DNA from: Gemmatimonadota bacterium
GTDB taxonomy: Bacteria; Gemmatimonadota; Gemmatimonadetes; Longimicrobiales; Gaopeijiaceae
DNA: 64,000 nt
Direction of reading: 5' to 3'
Assembly: GCA_022822325.1 (NCBI GenBank)
Contig: JAJEBW010000024.1
Coordinates: 124,001-188,000 of the forward strand
This document shows positions 693 through 52,684 of the stretch, piece after piece (the stretch's first letter is position 1; every line of letters begins with the position of its first letter). The notes under the pieces are model-generated. The model did no database searches, was not told the DNA's origin, and saw only the letters and a list, made by a program, of their open reading frames with translations. A program made the translations under genes and the position numbers.

Positions 693-844
693 TCGCGGCG
701 GCCCGGACCGCTCGGAGGTCGGGACGGACATTCGATCTGTCGCGCCCCGGATGCGCCGCTCGCACGGTCTGCAAAGAGGAAGGGACCAGGGCTTCGCCTC
801 GCCTTGCCGGTTCGGCGCATCGCCGCTTTCGGCGCGCACTCGCG

Positions 845-2038: not shown

Positions 2039-2196
2039 GCCGCGATCGGCACCCTGGACGCTGGCGGCAACGACGACCGTCTTCTCCCGCCGTCAGGCGT
2101 CCCCCGGCGAGGCCGCGCCCTGAACCGCCGCCGCTTCCAACCTGACCCCCCGCACTCTCCCGGCTCGCGCTTCCCCCTCCAACGGCAAACACCACC

Positions 2197-3684: not shown

Positions 3685-3808
3685 CCGGAGTTGGACCCGG
3701 GCGCGGCTGTGCGCGAAGGAGCGGGAACTCATGGATCGAACGGCCTGCCGGAGCTCGTGATCGCCGACCGCCGGGGTCCCGCTCCGCCCCCTTACCTGGA
3801 TTGTTGAT

Positions 3809-3837
3809 TTGTCCCATCGTCCTGAACATCCTATCGT
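3809..3837 (+). promoter_or_regulatory. Candidate sigma70-type promoter before SusC1
   Basis: TTGTCC (3809-3814) and TATCGT (3832-3837) are separated by 17 bases. The same -10 hexamer occurs at the candidate promoter at 21609. Matches are 4 of 6 at both boxes, so this is suggestive only. It lies inside a 17-base-period direct repeat. Confidence 0.35.
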
Positions 3838-3848
3838 CCTGAACATCC
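3816..3848 (+). repeat. Two-copy 17-base direct repeat upstream of SusC1
   Basis: The unit ATCGTCCTGAACATCC occurs twice in tandem (3816-3831 and 3833-3848). It lies between the serine hydrolase and the SusC1 leader and could be a binding site for a regulator; no factor is known. Confidence 0.6.
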
Positions 3849-3903
3849 GGTGCCCGGGCCATCTTCCCGGGAGCGTTGCCGGATCCTGCCCCCGGTCCCC
3901 AGA

Positions 3904-3926
3904 CCCGAGGCCTCGGGGGCTTTTTT
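3904..3926 (+). terminator. Terminator-like hairpin in the SusC1 leader
   Basis: A perfect inverted repeat CCCGAGG/CCTCGGG (3904-3917) is followed within three bases by TTTTTT (3921-3926). The next gene's ribosome site AGGGGAGG begins about 12 bases later. It may end transcription of the hydrolase, or act as an attenuator if the promoter at 3809-3837 is real. Confidence 0.6.
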
Positions 3927-3951
3927 CTTTCTCTCCAAGGGGAGGTACACC

Positions 3952-6900
3952 ATGGTCTTTCTTCGTAAGACCTGCGCCGTTCTGGCGCTGCTCGCCCTCG
4001 CCGTGCCGATCGCCGCGCAGGAACGCGCCTCGGTCGGCGGCCTGGTCCGCGACGGATCCACCCTGCAGCCGCTCGGAGGCGCCCAGATCCAGATCGAGGG
4101 CACCAACTTCGGCGGCCTGACGAGCGCCGAGGGGCGGTTCGTCATCCTCAACATTCCTCCGGGAACCCACTCGCTGCGCGCCACCTTCATCGGCTACGGC
4201 CCGATCACGCAGGAGTTCACGGTCGCCGCGGGGGAATCGGCGGAGGTCAACTTCGACCTTGCGCAGTCCGCGCTGGCTCTCGACGAGATCGTCGTCACGG
4301 CCACCGGGCAGCAACGGAAACGCGAGCTTGGCAATGCGGTCGGCGACATCGACGCGGCCGAGATTCGCGAAGTGGCGCCGGTCAACAACATCTCGGATCT
4401 GTTGCAGGGCAGGTCGGCCGGGGTCCAGGTCTTCAACTCCGCCGGCACCTCGGGAGTGGGTTCGCGAATCCGGATCCGCGGCTCCAGCTCGATCTCGCTG
4501 TCGAACGACCCGCTCATCTACGTCGATGGAATCCGCGTCGACAGCCGCCAGAGCGGACTCGGCGCCGGCGGCCAGGAGGCGTCGCGCCTCGACGACTTCA
4601 ACCCCGAGGACATCGAGTCGATCGAGATCGTCAAGGGGCCCTCGGCGGCCACCCTCTACGGCACCGAAGCAGCCAACGGCGTGATCCGAATCACCACCAA
4701 GCGGGGCGTTCCCGGCACCACGCGCTGGAACATCTGGACCGAGGGCGGAATCATCCAGGAGCCCAACACCTATCCTCTAAACTTCGCGGGCCTCGACGCG
4801 GCCGGCGGCACCTACGCACGCGCCTGCCGCCTGAACGAGGTCGCCAACGGGCTGTGCAACCAGAGCTCGGTCGAGTCCTACCAGGTCCTGCACGATCCGG
4901 CGCTCTCCCCGATCGACGACGGCAATCGCACCCAGTTCGGGCTTTCCGTCACCGGCGGAACCGAGCGCATCAACTACTACATCGCGGGCGAGTTCGAGGG
5001 CGAAACGGGCCCGTACTCCCTTCCCCAGCCCGACCGCGAGGATCTGGAATCGCGCGGCGTTCCGGTCACCAGCGAGGTCGAGCGGCCCAACCAGCTTCGG
5101 CGGCGCAATCTGCGCGTCAATCTCAACAGCCAGGTCGCCGACCGGGTCACCCTGGCGCTGCAGATGTCCTACCTGGACAGCCACTTCGCCTACATGGGCA
5201 ACGACAACAACTCCTTCGGCTTCCTCCCCAGCGCCTTCTTCGGCGGCTCCAATCCCGACCGCGCATGGGGATTCCAGCGTCCCGCCCAGCTCTTCGGCCG
5301 CACCTTCTACCAGGACACCAACCGCATGACCGCGTCGAGCACGGTGACCTGGGACCCCTTCGAGTGGCTGGCCGTGCGCGGAACCGGCGGGGTCGACTAC
5401 TACAACCGGGGCGACATCTCCTTCTTCGCGCGCGACATCGGGGTGCCGGGCGACCGCAACCGCGGCCGCAAGGACACCGACTACATCAATCAGTGGCAGT
5501 ACACCTTCGACGCGAGCACCACCGCCTCCTTCGATCTGGCCGACGAGATCACCTCGCGCTCGACGCTGGGCGTGCAGTACTTCGAGAACCAGTACCAGGG
5601 CACCCAGGCATGGGGAATCGACATCGTGAACGGCGGTTCGTCGATCGGGCTCGCCGCCGAAACCTTCTCCAGCGAGTTCCACACCTTCGAGAAGACCGCC
5701 GGCCTCTTCATCGACCAGCAGTTCGGACTGAATGACCGGCTCTTCCTGACCGGGGCCGTCCGCGCCGACGACAACAGCGCCTTCGGCCAGGACTTCGACC
5801 TCATCTACTACCCGAAGGCGGGGCTCTCCTGGATTGCGTCGGAGGAAGAGTTCTTCCCGCGGATCCCCATGGTGGACCAGTTGCGCTTCCGCGGCGCCTG
5901 GGGCAAATCCGGACTTCAGCCGGGATCGGACGACGCCATCCGCACGCTGTCGGCCAACGCCATCACCACTCCCGGGGACGAGACGAGCTCCGGAGTCTCG
6001 ATCGGGAACATCGGCAACAGCCTTCTGGAGCCCGAACGTTCGAGCGAAATCGAGGTGGGTTTCGACGCCGAAATCGCCGGGGGACGCGCGGGCCTCGAGT
6101 TCACCTACTACGACAAGCGCACCGACGGAGCCCTGATCACCGTTCCGCTGGCGCCGTCGCTGGGGGCGAGCGCATCGCGGTGGATCAACATTGGCGAGGT
6201 GCAGAACAAGGGCTACGAGGCCACGCTCACCGCCGGAGTGGTCGAGCTTGAAGGCTTCTCCTGGGATCTGACGCTCTCGGGTTCAATCAACAAGAACGAG
6301 CTGCTGTCGCTGGGCGAAGGCACCGAACCGATCGGATCGCAGACGCGCTTCGTGCCCGGTTTCCCGCTCGGAGGGCAGTGGGACCGGCCGATCCGGAGCT
6401 GGGCCGACAACGACGGCAATGGAATCATCACCCCGGACGAGCTGACGATCGGCGACACGATCGAATACATCGGGCCCGGCCAGCCCGAAGATCAGCTCAC
6501 CATCGTCTCCAACTTCCGGATCCTGGATGGCATTCGCATCTACGGACTGCTCGACTACCGCGGCAACTACATCGCATACAACAACACCGAGCGCTTCCGC
6601 TGCCGCTTCCGGCTTTGCCAGGCGCTGATCGATCCGGCAACTCCGCTGGACGAACAGGCGCGCGCGGTGGCATCGCTGCTGCACCCCAGCCAGACGGTGT
6701 GGGGCTACATGGAGGAGGGGAACTTCTGGAAGCTGCGCGAAGTCTCGGTGAGCTACGAACTGCCCGTATCGGTCCTCAACCGGATCGGTGCGTCGCGCGG
6801 TTCGCTGACGCTGTCGGGGCGCAATCTCGGAACCTGGACCAACTACACGGGCATGGATCCCGAGATCAACTGGAATGGGTCGGGAGACAACTTCGGCATT

Positions 6901-6963
6901 TCGGAGTTCCTGACCCAGCCTCCGGTGCGCTACTACACCGCCCGCATCAACTTCGCCTTTTAG
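3952..6963 (+). CDS. SusC/RagA-family TonB-dependent outer-membrane receptor (pair 1)
   Basis: The 1003-aa protein starts at ATG 3952 with a good ribosome site (AAGGGGAGG, about 7 bases upstream) and a Sec signal (residues 1-23). A carboxypeptidase-D-regulatory-like domain (about 28-105) is followed by a TonB-box-like DEIVVTATG, a plug domain with the characteristic YVDGIRVD and GPSAATLYG motifs, and a long beta-barrel ending in aromatic INFAF, as expected for BAM insertion. Lengths and order are typical of SusC/RagA. It imports a bulky nutrient such as glycan or peptide with the SusD partner 13 bases downstream; the substrate cannot be read from the sequence, and no glycoside hydrolase sits next to it. 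Confidence 0.95.
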   Translation: MVFLRKTCAVLALLALAVPIAAQERASVGGLVRDGSTLQPLGGAQIQIEGTNFGGLTSAEGRFVILNIPPGTHSLRATFIGYGPITQEFTVAAGESAEVNFDLAQSALALDEIVVTATGQQRKRELGNAVGDIDAAEIREVAPVNNISDLLQGRSAGVQVFNSAGTSGVGSRIRIRGSSSISLSNDPLIYVDGIRVDSRQSGLGAGGQEASRLDDFNPEDIESIEIVKGPSAATLYGTEAANGVIRITTKRGVPGTTRWNIWTEGGIIQEPNTYPLNFAGLDAAGGTYARACRLNEVANGLCNQSSVESYQVLHDPALSPIDDGNRTQFGLSVTGGTERINYYIAGEFEGETGPYSLPQPDREDLESRGVPVTSEVERPNQLRRRNLRVNLNSQVADRVTLALQMSYLDSHFAYMGNDNNSFGFLPSAFFGGSNPDRAWGFQRPAQLFGRTFYQDTNRMTASSTVTWDPFEWLAVRGTGGVDYYNRGDISFFARDIGVPGDRNRGRKDTDYINQWQYTFDASTTASFDLADEITSRSTLGVQYFENQYQGTQAWGIDIVNGGSSIGLAAETFSSEFHTFEKTAGLFIDQQFGLNDRLFLTGAVRADDNSAFGQDFDLIYYPKAGLSWIASEEEFFPRIPMVDQLRFRGAWGKSGLQPGSDDAIRTLSANAITTPGDETSSGVSIGNIGNSLLEPERSSEIEVGFDAEIAGGRAGLEFTYYDKRTDGALITVPLAPSLGASASRWINIGEVQNKGYEATLTAGVVELEGFSWDLTLSGSINKNELLSLGEGTEPIGSQTRFVPGFPLGGQWDRPIRSWADNDGNGIITPDELTIGDTIEYIGPGQPEDQLTIVSNFRILDGIRIYGLLDYRGNYIAYNNTERFRCRFRLCQALIDPATPLDEQARAVASLLHPSQTVWGYMEEGNFWKLREVSVSYELPVSVLNRIGASRGSLTLSGRNLGTWTNYTGMDPEINWNGSGDNFGISEFLTQPPVRYYTARINFAF

Positions 6964-6976
6964 GAAGGAGCGACCA

Positions 6977-8296
6977 ATGAAGCGACCTGACATCGGGAGC
7001 TGCAAGACTCTGGTGGCCCTGGGCGCGTTGGCGCTTGCGGCCTGCGACACCGACGATCTCCTCAACGTGGTGGATCCCGACATCGTGACGCCCGCCGACG
7101 TGGTGGGCGAAAAGGGCGCCGAGCTCTACTGGGCGGGCGCCGTCGGCCTCTTCGCGGGGGCCTATTCCAGCGGAGGCGGGGGACAGGTGGTCTACTCGGG
7201 GATGATGTCCGACGAGTTCCACCTCTCCGGCACCTTCCCGACCCGCAACGAGGTGGACCGGCGCGAGATGGACGATCGCAACGGAACCCTCCTCGGGCAC
7301 TACCGCACCCTGCACCGGGCCCGCGTGGGCACGAAGAACGCGGCCCAACGGATGGCCGAAATCCTTCCGGGCGACGCTCGCATCGCCGAGATGTGGAATC
7401 TGAACGCCTACGTCAACCTCTTCTTCGCGCAGGACTACTGCTCCGGGGTGCCCTTCAGCGACACGCCCAACGAGGGCGACATCGTCTACGGCGAGCGGCA
7501 GACCACGGAAGAGATCGTCAACATGGCTGCCGCCGCCTTCGGGAGTGCGGATCAGGCTGCGTCCGGCGACCAGGACCAGCGCAACCTGGCCGCGATCGGA
7601 TTGGCCCGCACGCGGCTCAGCCAGGGCGACTTTGCCGGCGCGACCAGCGCGGCGGCGACCGTTCCCGACGACTGGGCCTACCAGGTCCGCAGCAAGCAGG
7701 GCGGAACCTTCGGCCAGCGCAACGCCGTGTTCGAGCTCAACCAGCGCCAGCGCCGGTGGTCGATCTCCGACATGGAGGGCGAGAATGGCATCGCCTTCCG
7801 CTCCGAAGCGGACAGCCGGGTCCCGTGGGAGGACAGCGGTGGCCCGGGCTTCGACCAGGAGACCCCTCTCTACCACCAGCTCAAGTACGATTCCGAGGAG
7901 TCCGATGTCGTGCTGGGCAGCGGATTGGAGGCGCGGCTCATCCGGGCCGAGGCCGAATTCAACTCGGGCGGTCCCTGGCTGGCCACCCTGAACGAGCTGC
8001 GCGCGGGCGCGGGTCTGGCGCCATTGGCCGATCCCGGCGATCGCGACGGGCAGATCCGGCTTCTCTTCGAGGAACGCGGACGGTGGCTCTTCGGAACCGG
8101 CCAGCGGCTGGGCGATCTGCGACGGCTGGTTCGCCTGTACGGCTACAGCCAGGAAGATGTCTTTCCGACCGGGGCCTTCTTCAAGGGCGGCGCCTACGGC
8201 ACCGACGTGAACCTGCCGATTCCCTTCGAGGAGCACGAGAACGAAGCGCTGGCGGGACTCGAGGGTCAGTCGCTCTGCCTGGACCGGGAAGCGTAG
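6977..8296 (+). CDS. SusD/RagB-family surface lipoprotein (pair 1)
   Basis: The 439-aa protein has a lipoprotein signal with lipobox LAAC (Cys23). TPR-like helical segments and the C-terminal LFEERGRWLFGTGQRLGDLRRL motif are typical of SusD/RagB, where this region precedes the C-terminus. It forms the lid that hands substrate to the SusC barrel. Its ribosome site AGGAAGGAG starts in the stop codon of SusC1, so the two are translated from one message. Confidence 0.92.
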   Translation: MKRPDIGSCKTLVALGALALAACDTDDLLNVVDPDIVTPADVVGEKGAELYWAGAVGLFAGAYSSGGGGQVVYSGMMSDEFHLSGTFPTRNEVDRREMDDRNGTLLGHYRTLHRARVGTKNAAQRMAEILPGDARIAEMWNLNAYVNLFFAQDYCSGVPFSDTPNEGDIVYGERQTTEEIVNMAAAAFGSADQAASGDQDQRNLAAIGLARTRLSQGDFAGATSAAATVPDDWAYQVRSKQGGTFGQRNAVFELNQRQRRWSISDMEGENGIAFRSEADSRVPWEDSGGPGFDQETPLYHQLKYDSEESDVVLGSGLEARLIRAEAEFNSGGPWLATLNELRAGAGLAPLADPGDRDGQIRLLFEERGRWLFGTGQRLGDLRRLVRLYGYSQEDVFPTGAFFKGGAYGTDVNLPIPFEEHENEALAGLEGQSLCLDREA

Positions 8297-8385
8297 GGCC
8301 GAACCGAAGTTTCGTCAGGCAACCAGGGGCCTGTCGGCGATCAGGGGAATGCCGGCAATCAGGGTCCTGAAGGGTTGAAGGACTC

Positions 8386-8426
8386 GCGGGAGTCCGTGGG
8401 GGCAGGACGCCTTCACGGGCTCCCGC
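8386..8426. terminator. Strong hairpin between convergent genes
   Basis: GCGGGAGTCCGTG (8386-8398) pairs with CACGGGCTCCCGC (8414-8426), 13 pairs with one G-U, around a 15-base loop. It lies between the end of SusD1 and the end of the minus-strand plug lipoprotein. No clear T-tract follows on either side, so a bidirectional terminator is likely but not certain. Confidence 0.5.
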
Positions 8427-8476
8427 TGTCTTGCGGGCCGCCGGAGGACCTCCCAAGCCGCCGCCCGAACCGTCCG

Positions 8477-8920
8477 CTACCGGCCCCCGCGCGTCCGAAT
8501 CAGAATCACGCCGTCGCCGGCGTTGGTGCCGTAGTAGGTCGTCGCGTGAACGCCGCTCAGCACCTGAATGCGTTCGATGTCCGCAGCCGGGAGCGCATCC
8601 AGGAGCTCCAGATCGCGAACCTGCACATGGTCGATGTAGATCGGGGTGTCCTCGATCAGCGCCATGCTGGAAAATCCCCGTCGGTGAACCCGCGCCGGAC
8701 CGCCCCCGGCCGACTCCCCGAAGCTCGCGTAACGGACGGTGCGCCGGAGCGCTTCCCACATCGTGGTCGCCTCGGATTCGGCAATTTCGGCGGCCGTGAT
8801 GACCGTGCCCGTGGATGCGTCGGGCAGCGCCGCGCGGGGCCGGATTCCGCAGCCGGAGAGCAGCGTCGCACAGGTCAAAAGGGCGGAAAGGAGGAGTCGC
8901 AATGGTCGCGTTGGTTGCAT
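8477..8920 (-). CDS. Orphan TonB-receptor plug-domain lipoprotein
   Basis: The 147-aa protein has a lipoprotein signal (LSGC, Cys24) and then only a plug-like domain: VITAAEIAESEATTMWEAL, a YIDHVQV segment like the YVDG element of receptors, and IERIQVLSGVHATTYYGTNAGDGVILIRT, equivalent to the GPSAATLYG...GVI element. There is no barrel. It is an isolated gene, convergent with SusD1 and divergent from the ABC operon. It could bind a TonB-dependent partner or an extracytoplasmic signalling component; function is inferred only from the fold. Confidence 0.75.
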   Translation of the reverse strand: MQPTRPLRLLLSALLTCATLLSGCGIRPRAALPDASTGTVITAAEIAESEATTMWEALRRTVRYASFGESAGGGPARVHRRGFSSMALIEDTPIYIDHVQVRDLELLDALPAADIERIQVLSGVHATTYYGTNAGDGVILIRTRGGR

Positions 8921-9259
8921 GAGGTGCAGGGGGGCGGGCGGGCGGCCTGACTCGGCAATCTGGCGGGGGCGTCCAGGCTGCCCATGGCCGGATCCGCTCG
9001 TCGCGCGGGGCGGCGGGTGCCGGAACCCCGGAGCCGAATCCCTGAAATGTCCGGGAACGGGCGCCTGGCCGCAAGCGGGTCGGCGTCCGGCTCGCACCGA
9101 AGCCCGGGCGGTCCCTCGCTCTTGACCGCCCCCGGCGCCCGTGTAGCTTTGGCGGCGAAATTGATGCATCCTCGCCGGCGGGAAGCCGGCATCGAAACCG
9201 GCGGGAGGGCAGTGTCCCGCAAGGCAGGAATCCGGCATGGCAGGAGCGACGGACGCGCA
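8921..9259. other. Divergent intergenic region
   Basis: These 339 bases separate the plug lipoprotein (leftward) from the ABC operon (rightward). I see no supported gene. The only notable element is the candidate promoter at 9122-9149. Confidence 0.5.
9122..9149 (+). promoter_or_regulatory. Candidate promoter of the ABC/Gld-like operon
   Basis: TTGACC (9122-9127) and TAGCTT (9144-9149) with a 16-base spacer fit a sigma70-type promoter. It lies about 110 bases before the ATPase start. Confidence 0.4.
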
Positions 9260-10219
9260 ATGGTCCAACTGACCGACGTTACCAGGTACTACGGCCGCAA
9301 GCGGGCGCTCGGCCCCGTCTCCTTCGAGATCGGCCGCGGCGAAACCGTGGGGTTCCTTGGTCTGAATGGCGTGGGGAAGACGACCCTTCTGCGCATCCTC
9401 GCCTGCGGGCTGCGGCCCTCTTCGGGATCGGTCGCAATCGACGGACTTGACGTGCTGCGCGATCCGCACGAGGTCCGCAAGCGGGTCGGCTATCTTCCCG
9501 AACAACCCCCCGTCTACGGCGACATGACGGTGCGCGACTATCTGAGCTTCGTGGGCCGGATCAAGGGGATGACGGCGGAAGCGGTCGCGCGGCGGGTGCC
9601 CGAGGTGGAGGAGTACGCCCGCATCGCCGAGGTGCGCGATCTGCCGACGCGCCATCTGAGCCAGGGCTACCGGCAGCGGGTTGGGGTGGCGCAGGCGATC
9701 GTCCACGAACCCGAGCTGCTGATCCTCGACGAGCCCACCCACGATCTCGACCCGGTCCAGATCATGGAGATGCGCGCGATGATCCGGACGCTGAAGGACA
9801 GGCATACGATCCTGATCTCGAGCCATATCCTGCCGGAGATCAGCGAGACCTGCGACCGGCTTCTCATCCTTGACGACGGCCGCATCGTGGCGTCGGGGAG
9901 CGAGGCCGAGCTGAGCGACCGCCTGCTGACGTCGCGCCGCATCGAGGTGACGGTGCGGGGGGGCGAGACGGAAGACCGGGCCGGCGCGGGCGCGGAGGTC
10001 CTGATCGGGCAGGTGCCGGGGGTGACGAAGGTGAAGTGCGCGGCGGCCACGACGGGGAAGGGGGGCACGGCGACCTTCCGGGTCGAGGCCAACGCCGATC
10101 TGCGCGCCGAGGTCTGCCGGGCGCTGGTGGAGGGCGGCCACGACGTGATCGCGCTGGCGCGCGCCGAACGGCAACTGGAAGAGGTGTTCGTGGGGCTGGT
10201 GGGGGGGGTGCGGGCATGA
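9260..10219 (+). CDS. ABC transporter ATPase, GldA/NosF-like
   Basis: The 319-aa ATPase has Walker A GLNGVGKTT, ABC signature LSQGYRQ, Walker B LLILDEPTHDLDP and the H-loop ISSHIL. A C-terminal domain of about 90 residues follows the nucleotide-binding domain, as in GldA/CcmA-type proteins. ATG 9260 begins the conserved MVQLTDVTRYYG segment; a weak GGAG lies about 13 bases upstream. It powers the permease encoded next, whose ATG overlaps this stop (ATGA), and belongs with the GldG-like and DUF4340 proteins. The substrate is unknown; in Bacteroidota the homologous complex supports gliding, but the same four-gene set is found in non-gliding bacteria. Confidence 0.9.
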   Translation: MVQLTDVTRYYGRKRALGPVSFEIGRGETVGFLGLNGVGKTTLLRILACGLRPSSGSVAIDGLDVLRDPHEVRKRVGYLPEQPPVYGDMTVRDYLSFVGRIKGMTAEAVARRVPEVEEYARIAEVRDLPTRHLSQGYRQRVGVAQAIVHEPELLILDEPTHDLDPVQIMEMRAMIRTLKDRHTILISSHILPEISETCDRLLILDDGRIVASGSEAELSDRLLTSRRIEVTVRGGETEDRAGAGAEVLIGQVPGVTKVKCAAATTGKGGTATFRVEANADLRAEVCRALVEGGHDVIALARAERQLEEVFVGLVGGVRA

Positions 10220-29535: not shown

Positions 29536-30699
29536 ATGAAGCAGACCGAAGTTTGCAACCGGGTTCGGGGCCTTCCGGCGGTTTTTGCGCTGGCGGCCGT
29601 CGCGGCCTGCGGCGAAGGAGACGAAGGAGCCGCTCCACTCGAGGCGCCGCTCTTCGAGGGCGCGGTGGACCTTGAGATCGGGGAAGCCAGCGGCGACGAT
29701 CCCTACCTCTTCTCCTACATCGGCGCCATCGTGGAAGACCCCTGGGAGCGGATCGTGGTCGCGGACATGGGATCAAGCGAGATCCGCGTCTTCGAGCCCG
29801 ATGGCAGCTTTGCCTTCCGCTTCGGCGGCCATGGCGAGGGCCCCGGCGAGCTGGACAGGCCCAGCAACCTGCAGTTCGGCCCGGACGGCCTCCTCTGGGT
29901 GCGCGAAAGCGCCCGCTACAGCGTCTTCCGGCTGGAATCCGGGGGGGCGGAACACGAAAGGGTGGTCCCAAGTCCCCACGGTGGGCAGATCGGGTTGGTG
30001 GGTCCCTTCCTGGTGGACGGGGAGGGCGCTCTGCTCAGTGTGGGATCGGTTGACCACGAAGACGGTCCGCCAGGCATCGACGCGCGCCTGCATGTCAGAG
30101 GCGATGGAACGGTGGACACCGTGCATCTCGCGGACGCCGACCGTCAATTCACCGGTTGGGCCACCGTTCCGCGGCAGGTGGGGGAATTCCAGGCGCTGAT
30201 GTACATCTATCAGCCGCTCGGTCCCCGTTGGGCGCAGGCCCATGGCCCCGGCGGCGTCTGGGCCGAAGCCGTCACCTCCGAATACCTGGTCAACCTGCAC
30301 CGGCCCGACGGAACCACCCTGCAAATCGTCAGGCCCGAGGTCGAGGGACCGGAGCTCACGGCGTCCGACCGGGAATGGGCGCAGAGCCGCATCGACCGCG
30401 ATCTCGAGAGAATCGATCTCGCAAGCCACCCCTTCGACATTCCGGAGCGCAGACCCGCGCTGTCGGAGATCTTCTTCGACCGTGCGGGACGCCTTTGGGT
30501 GCAGAAGAGCCGTGCGGGAGGCGACGAGTGGAATGAAGCCGATGTCTGGGAGGGCGCCAGCCTGGAGGCCCGCCACCGGTGGCCGGCCCGGGTTGATGTC
30601 CGCAGTGGCTGGGTCGTCGATTCGCGGCTTTACGGCACCACCACCGATTCGCTCGGAGTTGAGCGCGTGGCTCGCGTTCGCTTCCGGCCAGCGGGCTGA
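29536..30699 (+). CDS. 6-bladed beta-propeller lipoprotein (NHL-type)
   Basis: The 387-aa protein has lipobox VAAC. Repeated blades carry motifs such as IVVADMGSSEIRVFEPDGSF and FGGHGEGPGELDRPSNLQF, the GxGPGEL pattern of NHL-like propellers common in Gemmatimonadota and Bacteroidota. A related propeller lies at 47688-48869. Role unknown; probably a surface binding protein. Confidence 0.8.
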   Translation: MKQTEVCNRVRGLPAVFALAAVAACGEGDEGAAPLEAPLFEGAVDLEIGEASGDDPYLFSYIGAIVEDPWERIVVADMGSSEIRVFEPDGSFAFRFGGHGEGPGELDRPSNLQFGPDGLLWVRESARYSVFRLESGGAEHERVVPSPHGGQIGLVGPFLVDGEGALLSVGSVDHEDGPPGIDARLHVRGDGTVDTVHLADADRQFTGWATVPRQVGEFQALMYIYQPLGPRWAQAHGPGGVWAEAVTSEYLVNLHRPDGTTLQIVRPEVEGPELTASDREWAQSRIDRDLERIDLASHPFDIPERRPALSEIFFDRAGRLWVQKSRAGGDEWNEADVWEGASLEARHRWPARVDVRSGWVVDSRLYGTTTDSLGVERVARVRFRPAG

Positions 30700-45290: not shown

Positions 45291-46553
45291 ATGAAAGCCA
45301 TCGAATTCAACGTCACCATCCCGGGCTACCTTCTGGCCCGAACGCTCGGCCGCGTCAGCAGCGCCTTCATTCACGGCCGTGCCTCGGGCTTGCGCCTGGT
45401 CGAACGGGCGGTTCCGGCGCTTCCAGGCGACGACTGGGTCCAAATCGAGATCCTCCTCTGCGGAATCTGCGGCAGCGATCTGGCGAACATCTCCTTCTGG
45501 TCGAGTCCGGCGATGGAGCCCTTCGGGTCGTTCCCGGCGGTGCTGGGCCACGAAGTCCTGGGCCGGGTGACCCAGGTGGGCGCGGGAGTGTCGCATCTGC
45601 GGGTGGGCGACCGCGTGGTCGTCGATCCGATGCTGCACTGCGAATCGCGCGGGTGGACCGAGGATTCGTGGTGCGCGTCGTGCCGGGCCGGGGCACACAG
45701 TACCTGCTGCACGGCGGGCGAAGAGGGAAAACTGATCGTCGGCGAGGGTGGCCAAAGGCTTGCGCCGGGGCTGACCATTGGCTATCACCGGGACCTGCCT
45801 GGGGGCTGGGGCGAAATGATGGTGGCCCATGCGCGGCAGGTGCGACCGGTGCCCGACGGGGTTCCGAACCGGACCGCGGTGCTCGCCGAACCGCTCTCGA
45901 TCGGGGTGCATGGCGTTCTGCAGAGCGGCGCGCTGGATTCGCCCGGACCGATTCTGGTGATTGGAAGCGGTACGATCGCATTCGGAACGATTTGGGCGCT
46001 GCGCACGCTGGGATACCGGGGCGAGTTGGTTGCGCAGGCCAAGCGGCCGCATGAAAGGAAGCTGGCAACCGCCCTCGGGGCGGATCAGACCATCGCCCCG
46101 GGCGCAGAGGCGCGGCAAGCCCTTGTCGATACCGGCGCGCACGCGTACATGCCAGTGGTGGGGCCCGAAGTCTACAGCGGCGGCGGGTTTCCGGTCATCT
46201 TCGACTGTGTGGGAAGCCGCTCAAGCCTGGCTCAGTCGTTCGGATTCGGGGCGGCGCGCGGACGGATTGTGGTGCTGGGGTGCGCGGGACAGCTCCGTAA
46301 GCTCGACCTTACCTTCCTGTGGGCCAAGGAATTGCAGGTACAGGGATATGTGGGGTACGGGGTGGAGGGCGGACGCGGGCAGGGAAGGCACACCTTCGAC
46401 ATCACCCTTGAGCGAATGCGCGACGACCCGGGCGCTCTCGCGGAGATCGTCACGCACATCTTTCCGCTGGCGCAGTACCGCGAAGCGCTCGTCGCCGCCC
46501 TTGACCACAGACGGAGCGGTGCAGTAAAGGTGGCGCTTCAGCCGGGGGATTGA
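45291..46553 (+). CDS. Zinc-dependent medium-chain alcohol dehydrogenase
   Basis: The 420-aa MDR enzyme has the catalytic zinc site CGICGSD and GHEVLG, a cysteine cluster CESRGW...CASCRAGAHSTCC for the structural zinc (longer than usual), and a Rossmann segment ILVIGSGTIAFGTIWALRTLGY. Likely oxidises a sugar alcohol, amino alcohol or similar polyol; the substrate cannot be told. Its 3' end overlaps the convergent MauD-like gene by 16 bases. Confidence 0.85.
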   Translation: MKAIEFNVTIPGYLLARTLGRVSSAFIHGRASGLRLVERAVPALPGDDWVQIEILLCGICGSDLANISFWSSPAMEPFGSFPAVLGHEVLGRVTQVGAGVSHLRVGDRVVVDPMLHCESRGWTEDSWCASCRAGAHSTCCTAGEEGKLIVGEGGQRLAPGLTIGYHRDLPGGWGEMMVAHARQVRPVPDGVPNRTAVLAEPLSIGVHGVLQSGALDSPGPILVIGSGTIAFGTIWALRTLGYRGELVAQAKRPHERKLATALGADQTIAPGAEARQALVDTGAHAYMPVVGPEVYSGGGFPVIFDCVGSRSSLAQSFGFGAARGRIVVLGCAGQLRKLDLTFLWAKELQVQGYVGYGVEGGRGQGRHTFDITLERMRDDPGALAEIVTHIFPLAQYREALVAALDHRRSGAVKVALQPGD

Positions 46554-47086
46554 GCCGCCGCCAGATCCGCCAACCTGCCGAGGCTGTCCTCGGTCACGTA
46601 ATAGGTGGCGGCGACAACACGACCATGACGGTCAACAGCAATCGCGCATGGCTGCCGAGATATCTTCCAATCCTCGATGTTCCGGGCCTCGGTATCGGCG
46701 ATCACAACGACACGCGCGATCATGTCTTCTGCGAATCTCGCCACTTCCGACTCTGTGCCAGCGCACGACACCACGACCTGTGCACCACTGCTGAGCCGTT
46801 CAGATACCGTCACGACGACATCCCGTATTGACGCGCACGGCTTACAACCTACCGCCAGAAATACGACCACGGCCGGCTCGCCGCGGCCCCGAAGTACCCA
46901 CTGACTGGAAACATCGCTCATTGCCCGCCCCTGCAAGATCGGCACCGTTGTTCCCACCTCAGGTCCAATCGAGTTGTTTCCTTTGCGCCCGGTGTGATCG
47001 CGAACAAGAACAATAATGATCATCCACTGGAATACAACCAGTATCCAAATCAAGACATATGATGTCCAGAAGATCATGGAATGCAT
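46538..47086 (-). CDS. MauD-like thioredoxin-fold membrane protein
   Basis: The 182-aa protein has one N-terminal membrane helix (about 5-29) and a periplasmic thioredoxin fold with CKPC (VFLAVGCKPCASI), as in MauD/TlpA-type proteins. MauD is needed for correct disulphides in the methylamine dehydrogenase small subunit. It follows the MauE-like gene by 13 bases and is the last gene of the five-gene operon that starts at 50086. Confidence 0.8.
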   Translation of the reverse strand: MHSMIFWTSYVLIWILVVFQWMIIIVLVRDHTGRKGNNSIGPEVGTTVPILQGRAMSDVSSQWVLRGRGEPAVVVFLAVGCKPCASIRDVVVTVSERLSSGAQVVVSCAGTESEVARFAEDMIARVVVIADTEARNIEDWKISRQPCAIAVDRHGRVVAATYYVTEDSLGRLADLAAAQSPG

Positions 47087-47099
47087 ACCCTCCAGGCGG

Positions 47100-47684
47100 T
47101 CAGTTGCGAGAGGAACGTCGAATACCCGTGCCGACGTCGTTGTCCGGGCGTTGTGACCTGACGAGCCTGTTTGACGCGAGGCGATGCATCACGGCCAGAA
47201 AGCCGCAAGCCGTAGCAACCCACAGAAGATCGGTTGCCCCCATATCGGAAAGTGATTCCCCATTGACGCCATTCGATTCGAAAGTCAAAAGGATCACAGC
47301 CAAGGCGGTGAGAACAAGGTTTCTCCAGATGCCAAACGACACTTTGGAAGAGGCCGCATTCGTTCCAAAGCAGTTACACCTACTATCAAATCCATGAATG
47401 GCACCGAGAACCAACAGAACACACAAGAACACGGAAAGCAAAACAACCGCGCCCGAGAGAGCAAGCGGCCGACCCACGCCGACGATCAGAAGAGACGCCA
47501 GAAGGAACTCCGTGACGAGAATCGCAGCGCGCACATATTGCACACTGGCTGACGGCACCCAGGGCAGAATCAAACGGACGACATCGCTCGTTTGCTCATC
47601 CCGTGGGGCAAACAGCTTGGACACGGCCGCAACCGCAAAGACGAGGCCAAGGACGATTGCCCCGATTCCAACGATCGTGCGCAT
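47100..47684 (-). CDS. MauE-like redox-associated membrane protein
   Basis: The 194-aa protein has four to five membrane helices and the MauE/DoxX-like signature (SKLF...RAAILVTEFLLASLL), with CNCFG (SRCNCFG) matching the family's CxCFG. MauE works with MauD in oxidative folding of an exported Cys-rich partner. Starts 3 bases after the stop of the propeller gene. Confidence 0.8.
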   Translation of the reverse strand: MRTIVGIGAIVLGLVFAVAAVSKLFAPRDEQTSDVVRLILPWVPSASVQYVRAAILVTEFLLASLLIVGVGRPLALSGAVVLLSVFLCVLLVLGAIHGFDSRCNCFGTNAASSKVSFGIWRNLVLTALAVILLTFESNGVNGESLSDMGATDLLWVATACGFLAVMHRLASNRLVRSQRPDNDVGTGIRRSSRN

Positions 47685-47687
47685 GAC

Positions 47688-48869
47688 TCAACCCCCCTGT
47701 GGAGCTGTTGGGGACAGACGGACACCGGTCGGTTGGCGGGGGACGAAAGTCATGCGGACGATCTCCGGTACATCCAGGTCCCCGGTTCGCACTCCGATCG
47801 CAACCCTGTCCCGGATGGCTCCATGCTCCAATGATACGTCACGCGGCCAGGTCGCGGTAAAGAGGAAGCTCCCCTGCCGGGTGTACACATGTGCACTGGC
47901 AAGGGGGACGGTATCCGCCAGAGACAAGTTCACCCACAATCTGTCTTCCTCATCAAACCACAAATCATTGATCGGCGGCTTGCGAACAGGCACCTGGAAC
48001 TCCGGGTAGCGCCACCCGCGTCGTGCATGGAAGGCAATCAGGCTGTCAAGCATATGGCTCTCTCGTCTGCGTTCGGTCATTGAAACTGCCGGACCCTGGA
48101 TCTGTCGGCGAATGGTGGTTATGTGCATCCCGTCGGGGTCGAACATCTGAATTTCGTACCGCGATGTAACAGCTCTCGCATACCCTCCGCTGCGACCATG
48201 GCGCAGAAGGTCTCTTGCGTGAAAGGGTCCCCGAACTTCCTGGCGTATCTGCCGTCCATCCCGGGTGGTCGCAAACAACTCGCCATACCCCAGTTCGTCC
48301 CACGGGATAACGGATGGCAATGGCTCCTCCCGCACGACCCGTCCGTCGGACAGCCAGGCGATTGCGCCATGTATCCCCGGGAGTCGCAGGCCAACGAGTC
48401 CATGCGGACCAAACATTGCCTTGCCTCGCACTGGTCGCCGGAATCCGGCCCGGACGGTCCGGTCATAAGTCCATCCCTGCAAGTCTGGAGAAAAGACAAC
48501 ATAGCCATATCCCACTTCAAGCCAGACCTCCTCGGTGGGACTTACGGCAACGGACCGAGCGAAATTTCCGAACTCGCCCGGGCCCTCTCCCGGCCTTCCG
48601 ATGTTTGTGAGATACTGACCGCTCTCACCAAAGACCGCGACCCGCCGCACGAGACGATCCGCGACCAGAAACCTGTAGTCACGGAGCAAAGCCAGATCCC
48701 GAACTTCTCCGAACTGATACCGCGAATCCAGAGTATGGCCGCCGATTACGAAGTCCGTGGTGGCCCTCATCGAAACTTCCTGTGACGGAGCGGCCACCAG
48801 ACCGCGATGCCGCGACGGAGCCGGGCATGCGGCAGGTCCCGGGGCCGCAGTCGATCGCGTCCCCTCCAT
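47688..48869 (-). CDS. Beta-propeller protein of the Mau-like operon
   Basis: The 393-aa protein starts at ATG 48869, which overlaps the stop of the Cys-rich peptide gene (TGATG). Blades with FGESGQYLTNIGRPGEGPGEFGNFARSVAVS and similar units indicate a 6-bladed propeller related to that at 29536. No normal signal peptide is visible at this start, which is odd for a partner of an exported peptide; an upstream start would run into the Cys-rich gene. In methylamine dehydrogenase the heavy chain is also a propeller, but this protein is not clearly homologous. Confidence 0.75.
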   Translation of the reverse strand: MEGTRSTAAPGPAACPAPSRHRGLVAAPSQEVSMRATTDFVIGGHTLDSRYQFGEVRDLALLRDYRFLVADRLVRRVAVFGESGQYLTNIGRPGEGPGEFGNFARSVAVSPTEEVWLEVGYGYVVFSPDLQGWTYDRTVRAGFRRPVRGKAMFGPHGLVGLRLPGIHGAIAWLSDGRVVREEPLPSVIPWDELGYGELFATTRDGRQIRQEVRGPFHARDLLRHGRSGGYARAVTSRYEIQMFDPDGMHITTIRRQIQGPAVSMTERRRESHMLDSLIAFHARRGWRYPEFQVPVRKPPINDLWFDEEDRLWVNLSLADTVPLASAHVYTRQGSFLFTATWPRDVSLEHGAIRDRVAIGVRTGDLDVPEIVRMTFVPRQPTGVRLSPTAPQGG

Positions 48870-49264
48870 CAATCGGCAACGCAACTGTCGGAGCTCTCCT
48901 CTTCGCATACGCATTTCCTCCCGCCGCACACGCAGTCGCAGATCAACTTCCAATCCTCCTCTTTGGCCTTTGCGCACCAGCAGTGAGCACCCGGTGGGTC
49001 ACCAACCGGCAAGTCCGGACATTCCCCAACGTCGGGCTCGCATCCAGAGCCGCAATCTCCCTCATTGCAATCATCGCAGCCAGCCACCCTGCGGTCTCCG
49101 AACAAACGTGTCGGACCTGTACGTGTCATGCCTGCCAACGTGGCAAATGCGACTACTGCCGCAAACCCTCGCCGACTGAGGGCTTCCAACACCCTGGCAC
49201 CGTGTTCCGTGTCATTCAGCGCATTTACCATTTGTTTGGCTTGGCGAAAAATCTGGTTGAGCAT
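48869..49264 (-). CDS. Tat-exported 13-cysteine protein (undescribed family)
   Basis: The 131-aa protein has a twin-arginine signal (SRRGFAAVVAFATLAG, Arg31-Arg32) followed by a short mature region in which 13 cysteines fall between residues 63 and 128, with several CxC and CxxC pairs. Its only tryptophans are Trp96 and Trp105, near the middle. The layout (Tat signal, tiny disulphide-rich body, MauE and MauD-like neighbours) recalls MauA, but the sequence is not MauA. It is likely the substrate of the folding machinery in this operon. Confidence 0.8.
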   Translation of the reverse strand: MLNQIFRQAKQMVNALNDTEHGARVLEALSRRGFAAVVAFATLAGMTRTGPTRLFGDRRVAGCDDCNEGDCGSGCEPDVGECPDLPVGDPPGAHCWCAKAKEEDWKLICDCVCGGRKCVCEEESSDSCVAD

Positions 49265-49336
49265 CCGTGTTCCTCCGTCGCTATGGACCTACGAGGTGAA
49301 AGCGTGCGCGCGACGCAACGCGCGTCATTGAGCGAA

Positions 49337-50086
49337 CTATACCATCACGCCAAGCACCAGAAATGCCAGGGTGGGTCGCACGGCCGCAAGCGTTCCACGT
49401 GACGATCTCAAATGGGCCAGGCACTCCATAATGGACCGGAACGAGCCAGCAGTCCGGGTCCGTACGCATCGCGAGACAAACAGCAGTGGAAGGCACCTGG
49501 CCGTCCCGAATGCGGCCAAAACGAGGACGGCAGCTACTGGGTCGCTTGCTGCGAGTGCGGACAATACAACGATGTAATAGCCGGCAGGCACGGTGGTAAC
49601 AAAGCCGAACCCAAGCAGGAATCCGAAAAGAAAAGACCACCGGACCAAACCTACGGCGCGCCAATGGCGGGGTACGACCCAGCCATCTGTTGGTGACCGT
49701 ACGTCCAGAAAGGACATCTGGACGGCAAAGAAGAGTATCACCGCAACGGCGAGAAGCCATGGCGCGGCGCTCGACAGAAAAGCGACGAAGCCCAAACTGG
49801 CCAACAGGATTCCGACAATGACGCTGGAACAAACAGCACCACCGCAGAATGCGATCAGAGGGCGGCGAGCATGTGAGCTCAACGGTACCGGCGTACGCCG
49901 AGGTCTCCGTGTCGCCTCGCCACCCCCCGGGGGCGTGATCGTCAAGATCGCGTTGACGCCTCATGGCGAATACATCGCAAGCCAGCCAGTCAATGCAGCC
50001 CAGGAGACCAGAACCGGGACAGCCAATGAACCTGGTGCGAGGGTTCCGACGAAGAACGCTGCAAGGGGCACGAGGTATCGAATCAC
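49337..50086 (-). CDS. CcdA/MauF-like membrane protein with in-frame TGA (possible selenoprotein)
   Basis: Starting at GTG 50086 (ribosome site GGGAGAGG about 10 bases upstream), the frame reads 41 codons of hydrophobic sequence ending LTGWLAMYSP, then TGA (49963-49961, codon 42), and continues in the same frame as GVNAI...through four to five further membrane helices (FGFLLGFGFVTTVPAGYY; FGTARCLPLL). The TGA falls where CcdA/DsbD-like proteins have the redox cysteine of an SPC motif. Reading through gives 249 residues. Alternatives: two separate genes (second start TTG 49945) or an inactivated gene. It is the first gene of the operon with the Cys-rich peptide. Confidence 0.55.
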
Positions 50087-50266
50087 GGAGCAGTTCCTCT
50101 CCCTTAAAGTATCAGGTCGGTCAATTCCACAGGACTCATGAAGCCCAAAGAAGTCACTGGAAATGTAGCAGACCGGGCGGCTGCCTGCCAGTCACACTGT
50201 CCAGATGTCGAGCCGCAGGAAAAAGCAAGTCGGATGCATGGAAAAACGAGGCAGCGCCACGACCCT
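50087..50266 (-). promoter_or_regulatory. Probable promoter region of the Mau-like operon
   Basis: The 180 bases between the CoA-synthetase stop and the CcdA-like start must hold the operon's promoter. A very short leader frame (11 codons from ATG 50139) ends just before the ribosome site. No convincing -35/-10 pair stood out. Confidence 0.3.
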
Positions 50267-52684
50267 TCATGCCTCGACAGCCCCCCGCACCACCCTTCCA
50301 TCCACCCCCACGGCGCGGTCCTCGTACACGAAAAGCGGGTTGACCTCGACTTCGGCGACCTCCGGCCACCGCATCAGGCAGGCGGCCACCGCCCGGGCCG
50401 CGGCCACCACCGGCCCGATCCGTACCGGCGGCTGTCCGCGCGCGCCATCAAAAAGAGCGGCGATCTTCAGCTCGCGGATTGCGGCTTCCATCTCGCGCCC
50501 GTCGACCGGCAGGACGCGGTGCGCCACATCGCGCAGCACCTCGACCCAGATGCCGCCGGCCCCCACCGTCAGCACGGGTCCGAGCTGCGGGTCGCGGGTC
50601 GCCCCCACAAGAAGCTCGGCCACCGGTTGCGGCAGCATCGGCGCCACGGTGACCGCATGACGCTCTGCCGGCAGGCCATGGGCACGGGCGTATTCTCGGG
50701 CCGCGGCCAGGATTCGCTCGAAGGCGGCGCGGGCCTCCTCTGCGGTTGCCACGCCGAGCTCCACCCCGCCCGCGTCGGTCTTGTGGACGATGTGCCGCGA
50801 GACGAGCTTGATGGCGACCGGCCCATCGACATCTCGCAGCGCCGCGGCCGCTTCATCCCCCGACCGCACGGTTACCGCCCTGGCGAACTTCAGCCCCGAT
50901 TCGGCAAGCAGAGTGCGGGACTCGGTCTCGCTGAGGGTCCGTCGTCCCTCCGACTGCGCCGCCGCCAACACAGGGTGGGGAACCGGACCACTGATCGAAT
51001 CCCCCACATCGGTCTCTTCCCGGTCCGCCCGCCCGTCTCGTTCACTGGGCAATGGCCGTGGGTCCGCGCCCGACTGGCCCTCCGGTCCCCGCACCGGCGC
51101 CGCAACCGTCCCACGGCCGAGACCGATCTTCCCACCCCAACTCGCGCCCGCACTCGTCCGCGCCGCCCGCCGCTGCAACTCCGCCACCGCGCGGCAGGCG
51201 ACCTCCAGCGAACCGATCACCGGCACCATTTCGGCGCGAAGCACATCCAGCGGCTGGCTCGGATGGGCCTCGTACTGCGAGTGAACGACCAGTCCCTTGC
51301 CCCGCTCGCGCATCAGCCGTGCCATCGACCGGGCCGCGACGATCTCCGTCCGGGTCAGCGTCTCCGAGAAGCGGATTCCATAGCCGCCGAAGAGGCCCAC
51401 CAGCAACACGGCCCCGACCGAGTCGTCCTGGGCGATGATCGCCAGCGCGTCGGCGAATGCTCCCGGATCGGCATCGGCGGCCCCCGCGACATCGACCGGT
51501 GTGCGCACTGCGGCGGCCGGACCCAGGCGCGCGCGCAGCCGGGCCGATGTTTCGTCGGACAATCGGGCGAGCGGCACTCCCATCTCGTGCAGCGCGTCGA
51601 CCGCCAGGGTGCTCTGGCCGCCGCCGTCGGAGAGGATTCCCACACCGCGCTGGCGCCCGGTCGAACCCGCCGGTTGTTCTCCCCCCGCCGAACGCGTCCC
51701 TGCCGCGGCGTCCGGTCGTCCAAAGGGGCCAGCCGAACGCGCCAACTCTTCATTCTCGCTGCGCGACACCGGCCCCGCGCCCCGCATCCCTTCCCCCGCC
51801 CCCCACCGCTGCGACCCCAGCGCGGCCGCGACCTCGAGCAGCTCGTCGGTGCGGGTAACCTCGACGATTCCCGCCTGCGCGAATCCGGCGCGAAGGCGGT
51901 CATAGGGTCCGGCGATGGCGCCCGTGTGCGAGAGGGCGGCGTGGGCTCCGGCGGCCGTGCGGCCGGACTTGATGGCAATCACCGGCTTCCGCGGCGTGAC
52001 GGCGGCGGCCGCAACCAGGAACGCGCGCGTGTCTCGGCAACCCTCCACATGGCAGATGATTGCGCGGGTGTCGGCGTGATCGCCCAGGAACTCCAGCACC
52101 TCGCCGAAACCCACATCGACCTCGTTGCCGAGTCCGCAGCAGATCGAGACGCCCATCCCCGTGCGGGCGGTGATCCGGGTCATCAGATCCAGCGCAATGT
52201 TCCCCGATTGAACCAGAAGCGCGAGGCCCCCGGGACGAACTCCGCGCGCGCCGATCAGGTTGACCCCCAGCGGCAGATTAAGGAGCCCCGAGGTGTTGGG
52301 GCCGACGACGCGCACGCCCCTTTCCGCCGCCGCCGCGAGCAACCGGGCCTCCAGCGCAGCGCCCTTAGGACCCGCCTCGCCGAACCCGACCGCCAGCACC
52401 ACAACCCCCGCTACCCCCCGCTCCCCGCATTCCTGCACCAGCCCCGGCGCGAACCGGCCCGGGGTGCAGAGGACGGCGAGATCCACGGCCTCGGGAATGG
52501 CTCCGACGGTGGGATGGACTTCGCGGCCGAGGAGCGATCCCCCCGCGGGGTTGACCGGATAGACGCGTCCCGCGTAGCCCGATTCCAGGAGCGCACGGAA
52601 GATCTGGTGGCCCCGCTTGGCAGGCGTGGCGCTGGCCCCGATCACCGCGATCGAACGGGGCTCGAAGATGGGCCCGAGGCTCAT
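50267..52684 (-). CDS. ADP-forming acyl-CoA synthetase (acetate-CoA ligase-type)
   Basis: The 805-aa single-chain protein has alpha-type CoA-binding and ligase domains (SIAVIGAS; phosphorylated-His motif ALSHTGAIAG) and a C-terminal ATP-grasp beta domain (GPVAIKLVSRHIVHKTDAGGVELGV). Two low-complexity stretches, one between the CoA-ligase domains (about 40 residues) and one before the ATP-grasp domain (about 65 residues), are unusual. It converts an acyl-CoA with ADP and Pi to free acid and ATP, or the reverse. Start ATG 52684 has AAGGGG three bases upstream. Confidence 0.87.
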   Translation of the reverse strand: MSLGPIFEPRSIAVIGASATPAKRGHQIFRALLESGYAGRVYPVNPAGGSLLGREVHPTVGAIPEAVDLAVLCTPGRFAPGLVQECGERGVAGVVVLAVGFGEAGPKGAALEARLLAAAAERGVRVVGPNTSGLLNLPLGVNLIGARGVRPGGLALLVQSGNIALDLMTRITARTGMGVSICCGLGNEVDVGFGEVLEFLGDHADTRAIICHVEGCRDTRAFLVAAAAVTPRKPVIAIKSGRTAAGAHAALSHTGAIAGPYDRLRAGFAQAGIVEVTRTDELLEVAAALGSQRWGAGEGMRGAGPVSRSENEELARSAGPFGRPDAAAGTRSAGGEQPAGSTGRQRGVGILSDGGGQSTLAVDALHEMGVPLARLSDETSARLRARLGPAAAVRTPVDVAGAADADPGAFADALAIIAQDDSVGAVLLVGLFGGYGIRFSETLTRTEIVAARSMARLMRERGKGLVVHSQYEAHPSQPLDVLRAEMVPVIGSLEVACRAVAELQRRAARTSAGASWGGKIGLGRGTVAAPVRGPEGQSGADPRPLPSERDGRADREETDVGDSISGPVPHPVLAAAQSEGRRTLSETESRTLLAESGLKFARAVTVRSGDEAAAALRDVDGPVAIKLVSRHIVHKTDAGGVELGVATAEEARAAFERILAAAREYARAHGLPAERHAVTVAPMLPQPVAELLVGATRDPQLGPVLTVGAGGIWVEVLRDVAHRVLPVDGREMEAAIRELKIAALFDGARGQPPVRIGPVVAAARAVAACLMRWPEVAEVEVNPLFVYEDRAVGVDGRVVRGAVEA

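Follow-up and report, generated by a model that had tools for sequence, protein, structure and literature searches.

A recurrent Mau-type operon of Gemmatimonadota with a putative selenocysteine-containing MauF and a Tat-type Cys-rich protein

Which substrate would the MauF, MauE and MauD accessory set of methylamine dehydrogenase serve in an operon whose small Cys-rich protein is not the light chain MauA? This question was raised by five genes of a Gemmatimonadota bacterium (assembly GCA_022822325.1, contig JAJEBW010000024.1) located at 46538-50086 of the window, as we term the whole 64,000-nucleotide (nt) stretch analysed (positions 124,001 to 188,000 of the contig). Our analysis indicates that the operon is likely to be a dedicated MauF/E/D-type oxidative-folding module with a selenocysteine (Sec)-containing MauF, serving a Cys-rich peptide exported by twin-arginine translocation (Tat) and its beta-propeller partner. 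At the sequence level this reading is supported by conservation of the module, MauF/E/D homology, the location of an in-frame TGA at a MauF Cys column, constraint on the codons after it and the presence of the Sec decoding machinery.

Operon organization

The five packed genes were confirmed as the original prediction had placed them, and the features of the operon are listed below together with the putative RNA signal (selenocysteine insertion sequence, SECIS).

49337..50086, minus strand: mauF-like gene, 249 residues with the TGA read as Sec (residue 42); membrane protein with an SP-U-G motif
49961..49963, minus strand: in-frame TGA, predicted Sec codon; TGA in 11/11 loci, Cys codon in 8/8 alphaproteobacterial MauF read
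49918..49935, minus strand: SECIS-like hairpin with a bulged U; RNAalifold consensus, apical loop beginning 32 nt past the TGA
48869..49264, minus strand: Tat-type Cys-rich protein of 131 amino acids (aa); 11 homologues aligned, invariant RR.F, CWC, CDC and CxC
47688..48869, minus strand: NHL/DUF5128-type beta-propeller, 393 aa; PF17170, without hydrophobic signal
47100..47684, minus strand: MauE membrane protein (CxCFG); PF07291 8.6e-19, hhalign against Paracoccus denitrificans MauE 2.1e-13
46538..47086, minus strand: MauD-like membrane-anchored thioredoxin-fold protein (CKPC); weak Redoxin match PF08534 6.1e-5, under the family cut-off, and hhalign against P. denitrificans MauD 1e-11

The upper operon limit at 50086 matches mauF only with read-through of the TGA at 49963-49961, which the original prediction had overlooked, and the GTG start at 50086 was picked among five candidate starts. 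The propeller open reading frame (ORF) spans 47688-48977 and its ATG overlaps the peptide stop as TGATG (48871-48867), in agreement with the coupling predicted for the window. Gene borders compared across loci vary from one to the next, and the TGATG coupling is therefore not a feature common to the module. Read-through fusion of peptide and propeller was rejected because their frame relation, taken from coordinates, differs among loci.

Profile-profile matches to the P. denitrificans proteins bore out the MauE-like (CxCFG) and MauD-like (CxxC) assignments, with cross-family hhalign pairs at 0.068 or worse. The mauF ORF had no Pfam or NCBIfam match at an E value (E) up to 1. It had been called CcdA/MauF-like, of which the MauF part was supported by hhalign and the CcdA part fits poorly: no DsbD/CcdA Pfam match was obtained, and the MauF part after the TGA has no invariant cysteine, where two membrane cysteines would presumably be expected of CcdA/DsbD.

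Recurrence of the module in Gemmatimonadota

Only one full peptide copy was found in the source genome, where a second match (E 0.36) was at chance level. A single-sequence search of 148 relatives with a limit of E 0.01 returned 14 genomes, among which only G000, G011, G022 and G121 were convincing; weak matches L025, L026 and L027 were spurious (unrelated long frames by eye) and the remaining matches at E 5e-4 to 0.009 were also excluded. The peptide profile recovered the same 8 genomes from each of two draws from the phylum (395 and 394 genomes, with a large overlap), where G103 (7e-4, three stops) was excluded and G007 was kept as a fusion outside the full-length count. Full-length peptide copies numbered 11, spread over 10 clusters and 6 Gemmatimonadota genomes (one each in G000, G011, G022 and G361, two in G314 and five in G121).

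Neighbourhoods were mapped for five module families, and MauF, peptide, propeller, MauE and MauD occurred together in 8 of the 10 clusters, one of which (G314:C19) has a frame-broken mauF; the G361 contig stops just past the peptide gene. This arrangement is beyond chance, since 11 full-length copies in 6 genomes share neighbours, and the recurrence of MauE, MauD and propeller genes beside homologues of the 131-aa protein is what the original prediction had proposed looking for. The MauF profile matched 4/298 phylum genomes, every one peptide-bearing, and detected all 6 peptide genomes and not G007, which retains only the peptide leader. Scanning genome contigs with MauD patterns identified 8 loci, all in Gemmatimonadota metagenome bins that included Candidatus Palauibacter poriticola and Ca. 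P. denitrificans; window-like loci may have been missed, as these patterns are unable to match the window's own diverged MauD. Viral contigs gave 11 pattern matches, none of them a relative.

Separately, a MauF fragment fused to a propeller was observed at L085:8197-9675 (G121:C39), where the other module genes are missing and the TGA context is intact.

The Cys-rich peptide

The peptide (131 aa) has 13 cysteines, a twin-arginine motif (RRGF) and tryptophans at positions 96 and 105, as had been described. Neither Pfam nor NCBIfam matched it at E up to 1 and no PDB sequence match was obtained; judged by its sequence, the protein is a new family. The view that it is not MauA likewise stood, its body having no MauA match and no known family being matched. 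Homologues are 29–34% identical to the window copy, reflecting rapid divergence. Eleven cysteine positions are invariant, and the residues shared by all 11 copies are C63, C66, C71, C82, C95-W96-C97, C109-D110-C111, C118, C120 and C128. C75 and C113 are absent together, only in L024, and because both were lost together they can be interpreted as a putative disulphide pair. RR.F is invariant in all 11 copies, and the hydrophobic stretch after the motif was measured in 4 copies without a signal predictor.

Several of the G121 copies carry an RHPGELx-like tail past a Gly-rich linker that is absent in the window copy, and this tail is perhaps a propeller-binding strand. For the Bacteroides NVEALA peptides, considered as a lead, no paper was found.

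The propeller partner and Tat export

The propeller is of NHL/DUF5128 type and is not MauB. Its PF17170 match scored 27.3 bits (family cut-off 22.9), and its structural model (predicted local distance difference test score 79.9) had NHL domains as best Foldseek matches (4zlr, E 4.6e-11), with methylamine dehydrogenase absent from the fold matches listed (best 50 of 1425). Alignment to MauB by hhalign gave E 0.39.

A strongly hydrophobic segment before the domain was lacking in 10/10 partner propellers, among which the best 12-residue Kyte-Doolittle mean was 1.26, in an over-extended start; two short propeller matches (158 and 105 aa) were excluded from this comparison. All ten other propellers examined, from these loci and from the window, had a hydrophobic segment (1.41 or more), some of the ten being close pairs from G011 and G022. 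In G007 (L044:2725-4047) an intact propeller directly follows a peptide-family Tat leader in a single fused protein, and the Cys-rich body is gone. No MauF was found in this genome, nor any MauE or MauD within the 9 kb to which that search was confined, and the dN/dS values of its propeller were 0.29 in comparison to G011 and 0.22 in comparison to G022. The signal-less partner propellers and the G007 fusion together suggest Tat co-export of peptide and propeller as a pair, with the propeller as a co-exported subunit, and the fusion can be read as indicating that the peptide's leader would serve export of both.

Alternatively, the peptide could be a secreted, bacteriocin-like Cys-rich product for which the propeller provides the receptor or immunity function, a reading close to the second option of the original prediction, as the small size and rapid divergence of the peptide and its five copies in the G121 genome would allow. 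We regard this as unlikely, because no signal or anchor-like segment was found in any of the 10 partner propellers, which are thus not obvious surface receptors; beyond the five module families mapped in the neighbourhoods, other partner genes may be present.

Relation to methylamine dehydrogenase

The module was compared with P. denitrificans mauFBEDA (plasmid NC_008688.1). Both have homologous MauF, MauE and MauD, and both combine within one operon a small Cys-rich protein bearing a Tat leader with a propeller protein, MauB in the case of mauFBEDA. In contrast to mauFBEDA, the window mauF has a TGA where Paracoccus has the SPC Cys codon, the small protein is not a PF02975 member and lacks the conserved Trp pair, the propeller is NHL/DUF5128 rather than MauB, and the operon has no mauG. 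The absence of mauG had been noted before and holds for the operon only, as CCP_MauG (PF03150) genes were found on other contigs in 6/7 genomes; module-bearing G011 had none at E 1e-5.

A decidedly unlikely reading is that the pair represents a new periplasmic enzyme with its active site at the invariant C-W-C of the small subunit, forming a second, non-tryptophan tryptophylquinone (TTQ) branch of Mau-assembled enzymes. Such an enzyme might carry, for instance, a cofactor formed from Trp or Cys-Trp, and would combine selenium-dependent MauF/E/D assembly with hitchhiking export through Tat.

The quinoprotein-like enzyme raised by the original prediction, in which a methylamine dehydrogenase-like protein would consist of the propeller as heavy chain and the peptide as a diverged light chain whose cofactor derives from Trp, was not borne out and is highly unlikely. 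The MauF/E/D set, the invariant W96 of the CWC motif (11/11) and a leader similar to that of MauA (E 2.8e-4) are in keeping with it, as is a Thermomicrobium roseum PF02975 light chain surrounded by MauE, MauD-like and MauF-like genes; Tat leaders in general may resemble each other. However, the peptide body aligned to the MauA body at E 0.39 with a score under the median of 60 permuted decoys, Trp105 is not conserved (the L045:2488-2892 peptide has a single Trp in its body), the propeller is unrelated to MauB at E 0.39, and G011 possesses the module with no CCP_MauG match. The PF02975 light chain was over cut-off in 0/7 genomes (six module genomes and G007), and these searches together with the body-only hhalign against decoys led us to reject TTQ/MauA membership. 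By homology, the pair is not a TTQ dehydrogenase: similarity of the peptide to MauA is confined to the leader, conservation of the second Trp is lacking and the propeller differs in type from MauB.

An in-frame TGA in mauF

Upstream of the MauF ORF lies a segment that encodes a short membrane stretch ending in W-L-A-x-(Y/H/F)-S-P (G361 has a variant); the stop codon after it is TGA in 11/11 loci (10 clusters and the remnant L085) and in frame with the remainder of MauF in 10 of them. P. denitrificans MauF reads WSPCGYSSI and T. roseum reads WSP-TGA-GYS, placing the TGA at the SPC cysteine, which related CcdA-type proteins presumably use as their redox position. Of 15 alphaproteobacterial MauF records found, 8 were read and all had a Cys codon (TGC/TGT) at this position.

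A read-through MauF family was built from 9 loci with a Cys letter at the TGA, and hhalign against P. denitrificans MauF improved from 1.5e-6 for the part after the TGA to 7.3e-12, over 176 columns, with the read-through N-terminus. When the TGA was masked as X, codons -30 to +15 matched MauF at E 5.9e-5, in comparison to 0.85 and 0.46 for the other two frames. For two species pairs, rough dN/dS values based on few changes stayed below 1 on either side of the TGA (0 and 0.49; 0.35 and 0.34). Searching plasmids with the read-through MauF gave one weak match, Paracoccus MauF (E 0.1). These sequences are best read as a putative new selenoprotein family, which we term SPUG-MauF.

Selenocysteine decoding

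Synonymous codons were identical in 156/226 comparisons (0.69) in the 15 codons after the TGA, in comparison to 0.32–0.33 elsewhere in mauF and a maximum of 0.557 among the 204 other windows of that length offering 40 or more comparisons; the test used 8 sequences and left out L067, which nearly duplicates L066, as well as L068 and L085. RNAalifold placed a hairpin with a bulged U at alignment columns 29–46, and its fraction of paired bases was attained by only 9/500 shuffles. A published bacterial SECIS model, as given in PMC13188914, requires a G in the first two loop positions, a spacing of 16–37 nt and a minimum free energy (MFE) of -7.5 or lower; the spacing of 32 nt observed here falls inside that range, the apical loop starts with G in 11/11 sequences and the 20-nt piece reaches the MFE limit in 9/11. 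Overall, the evidence for a SECIS-like hairpin after the TGA is moderate. The Rfam scan of 46000-50600 gave no match at E up to 1, where inclusion of a bacterial SECIS model in Rfam was unchecked.

SelA was found in 33/39 genomes tested, including all 7 of interest, and SelB was over cut-off in 7/7. tRNA-Sec exceeded the family cut-off (47 bits) in 37/39 genomes, with scores near it possibly arising from ordinary tRNAs, as 5/14 control genomes pass; all 7 genomes of interest scored at least 68.9 bits, and ARAGORN confirmed the TCA anticodon in 3/3 loci examined.

That the TGA is an ordinary stop, splitting mauF into a small one-helix protein and a translationally coupled downstream protein with no Sec, has a very slight chance of being correct: in-frame starts lie 6–21 nt past the TGA in 7/11 loci and single-sequence folds are not exceptional, but the codon is TGA in every locus and located at the MauF Cys, the first in-frame start ranges from +6 to +72 and would delete conserved GxNSI-type residues in 9/11 loci, synonymous codons past the TGA are constrained, and the Sec machinery is present.

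Proposed function

Under the preferred reading of a Sec-dependent oxidative-folding module, the small Cys-rich protein would leave the cell via Tat, probably carrying its signal-less propeller partner, and its roughly 13 cysteines would be paired in the periplasm by MauD (CxxC). Electrons would pass between MauD and its membrane partners MauE (CxCFG) and MauF, such that MauD, MauE and Sec-MauF may act as a relay in the membrane for oxidising or correcting the peptide disulphides. The UGA at 49963-49961 would be decoded as Sec through SelB, tRNA-Sec and the SECIS hairpin, resulting in SP-U-G in comparison to SP-C-G of Paracoccus, and selenium could speed the exchange or provide resistance to over-oxidation. 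We infer actual insertion of Sec, disulphides in the peptide, Tat co-export and a complex between peptide and propeller. In light of these results, the interpretation offered by the original prediction is partly supported.

Several observations weigh against this reading. The disulphides have Cys conservation as their sole evidence, and the signal comparison was a hydrophobicity scan devised after the sequences had been seen, with no predictor. Single 55-nt folds of 10 sequences did not surpass shuffles (z -1.10 to +1.81) and most sequences lacked the hairpin when folded singly; the covariation score was attained by 110/500 shuffles, two of the 11 20-nt pieces missed the MFE limit, and T. roseum has no hairpin at the corresponding place. 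SelB, the only Sec gene sought there, was not found on the T. roseum plasmid record. SelA and tRNA-Sec are also common in module-free relatives, and their presence is therefore permissive only. Copies also decay, as shown by L068, which keeps the same TGA context and has a later MauF frame break, by cluster G121:C34, in which no MauE was matched even at E 10, and by the G121:C39 fragment, whose MauF-propeller fusion shows that deletions join neighbours in decaying copies; the G007 fusion is thus possibly such a relic.

We know of no mechanism for MauF beyond its requirement for methylamine dehydrogenase. Sec in place of the SPC cysteine would mark this residue as a likely redox centre and provide a handle for testing, and would add to the selenoproteome a membrane-embedded family that ordinary gene callers would split in two. 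Judging from the new Cys-rich family, MauA may not be the only substrate of Mau-type folding machinery.

Comparison with known systems

The T. roseum plasmid NC_011961.1 (L055) shares with the module MauE, MauD-like and MauF-like genes, MauA-like small proteins, a TGA at the same SPC site of its MauF-like gene, and large proteins read as propellers. It differs in its small protein, whose scanned representative matched PF02975 and which retains both Trp positions in the two copies aligned, and in its MauE, which carries a fused large domain. A SECIS-like hairpin is absent at the equivalent distance, and the large proteins, which have only weak Pfam repeat matches, gave no match to the module propeller (hhalign E 0.08 or worse).

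Known bacterial selenoproteins resemble the putative Sec-MauF in their Sec/Cys pairing at a redox position, a downstream SECIS-type hairpin and the presence of SelA, SelB and tRNA-Sec. The table of a 119-entry prokaryotic selenoprotein inventory of 2026 (PMC13188914) has no MauF or methylamine entry, and 'mau' and 'methylamine' have 0 occurrences in its main text. The literature searched, including Thermomicrobium and Gemmatimonadetes selenoprotein work, yielded no report of a MauF selenoprotein, and since neither inventory nor literature names one, a Sec-containing MauF is probably undescribed there.

Additional observations

The Mau-like cluster of L055 extends over 717-9349 with two MauA-like small proteins and several large proteins read as propellers, and near 3772 lies an apparently disrupted third frame for a small protein. 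Apart from the module, a true PF02975 light chain was found in 2/298 phylum genomes (L058 and L059, from G225 and G246), beside genes that are MauE- and MauD-like by eye. Far from the operon, the window encodes at 29536-30699 (plus strand) another member of the module propeller's subfamily, with a profile E of 5.9e-113 and a lipoprotein-like signal.

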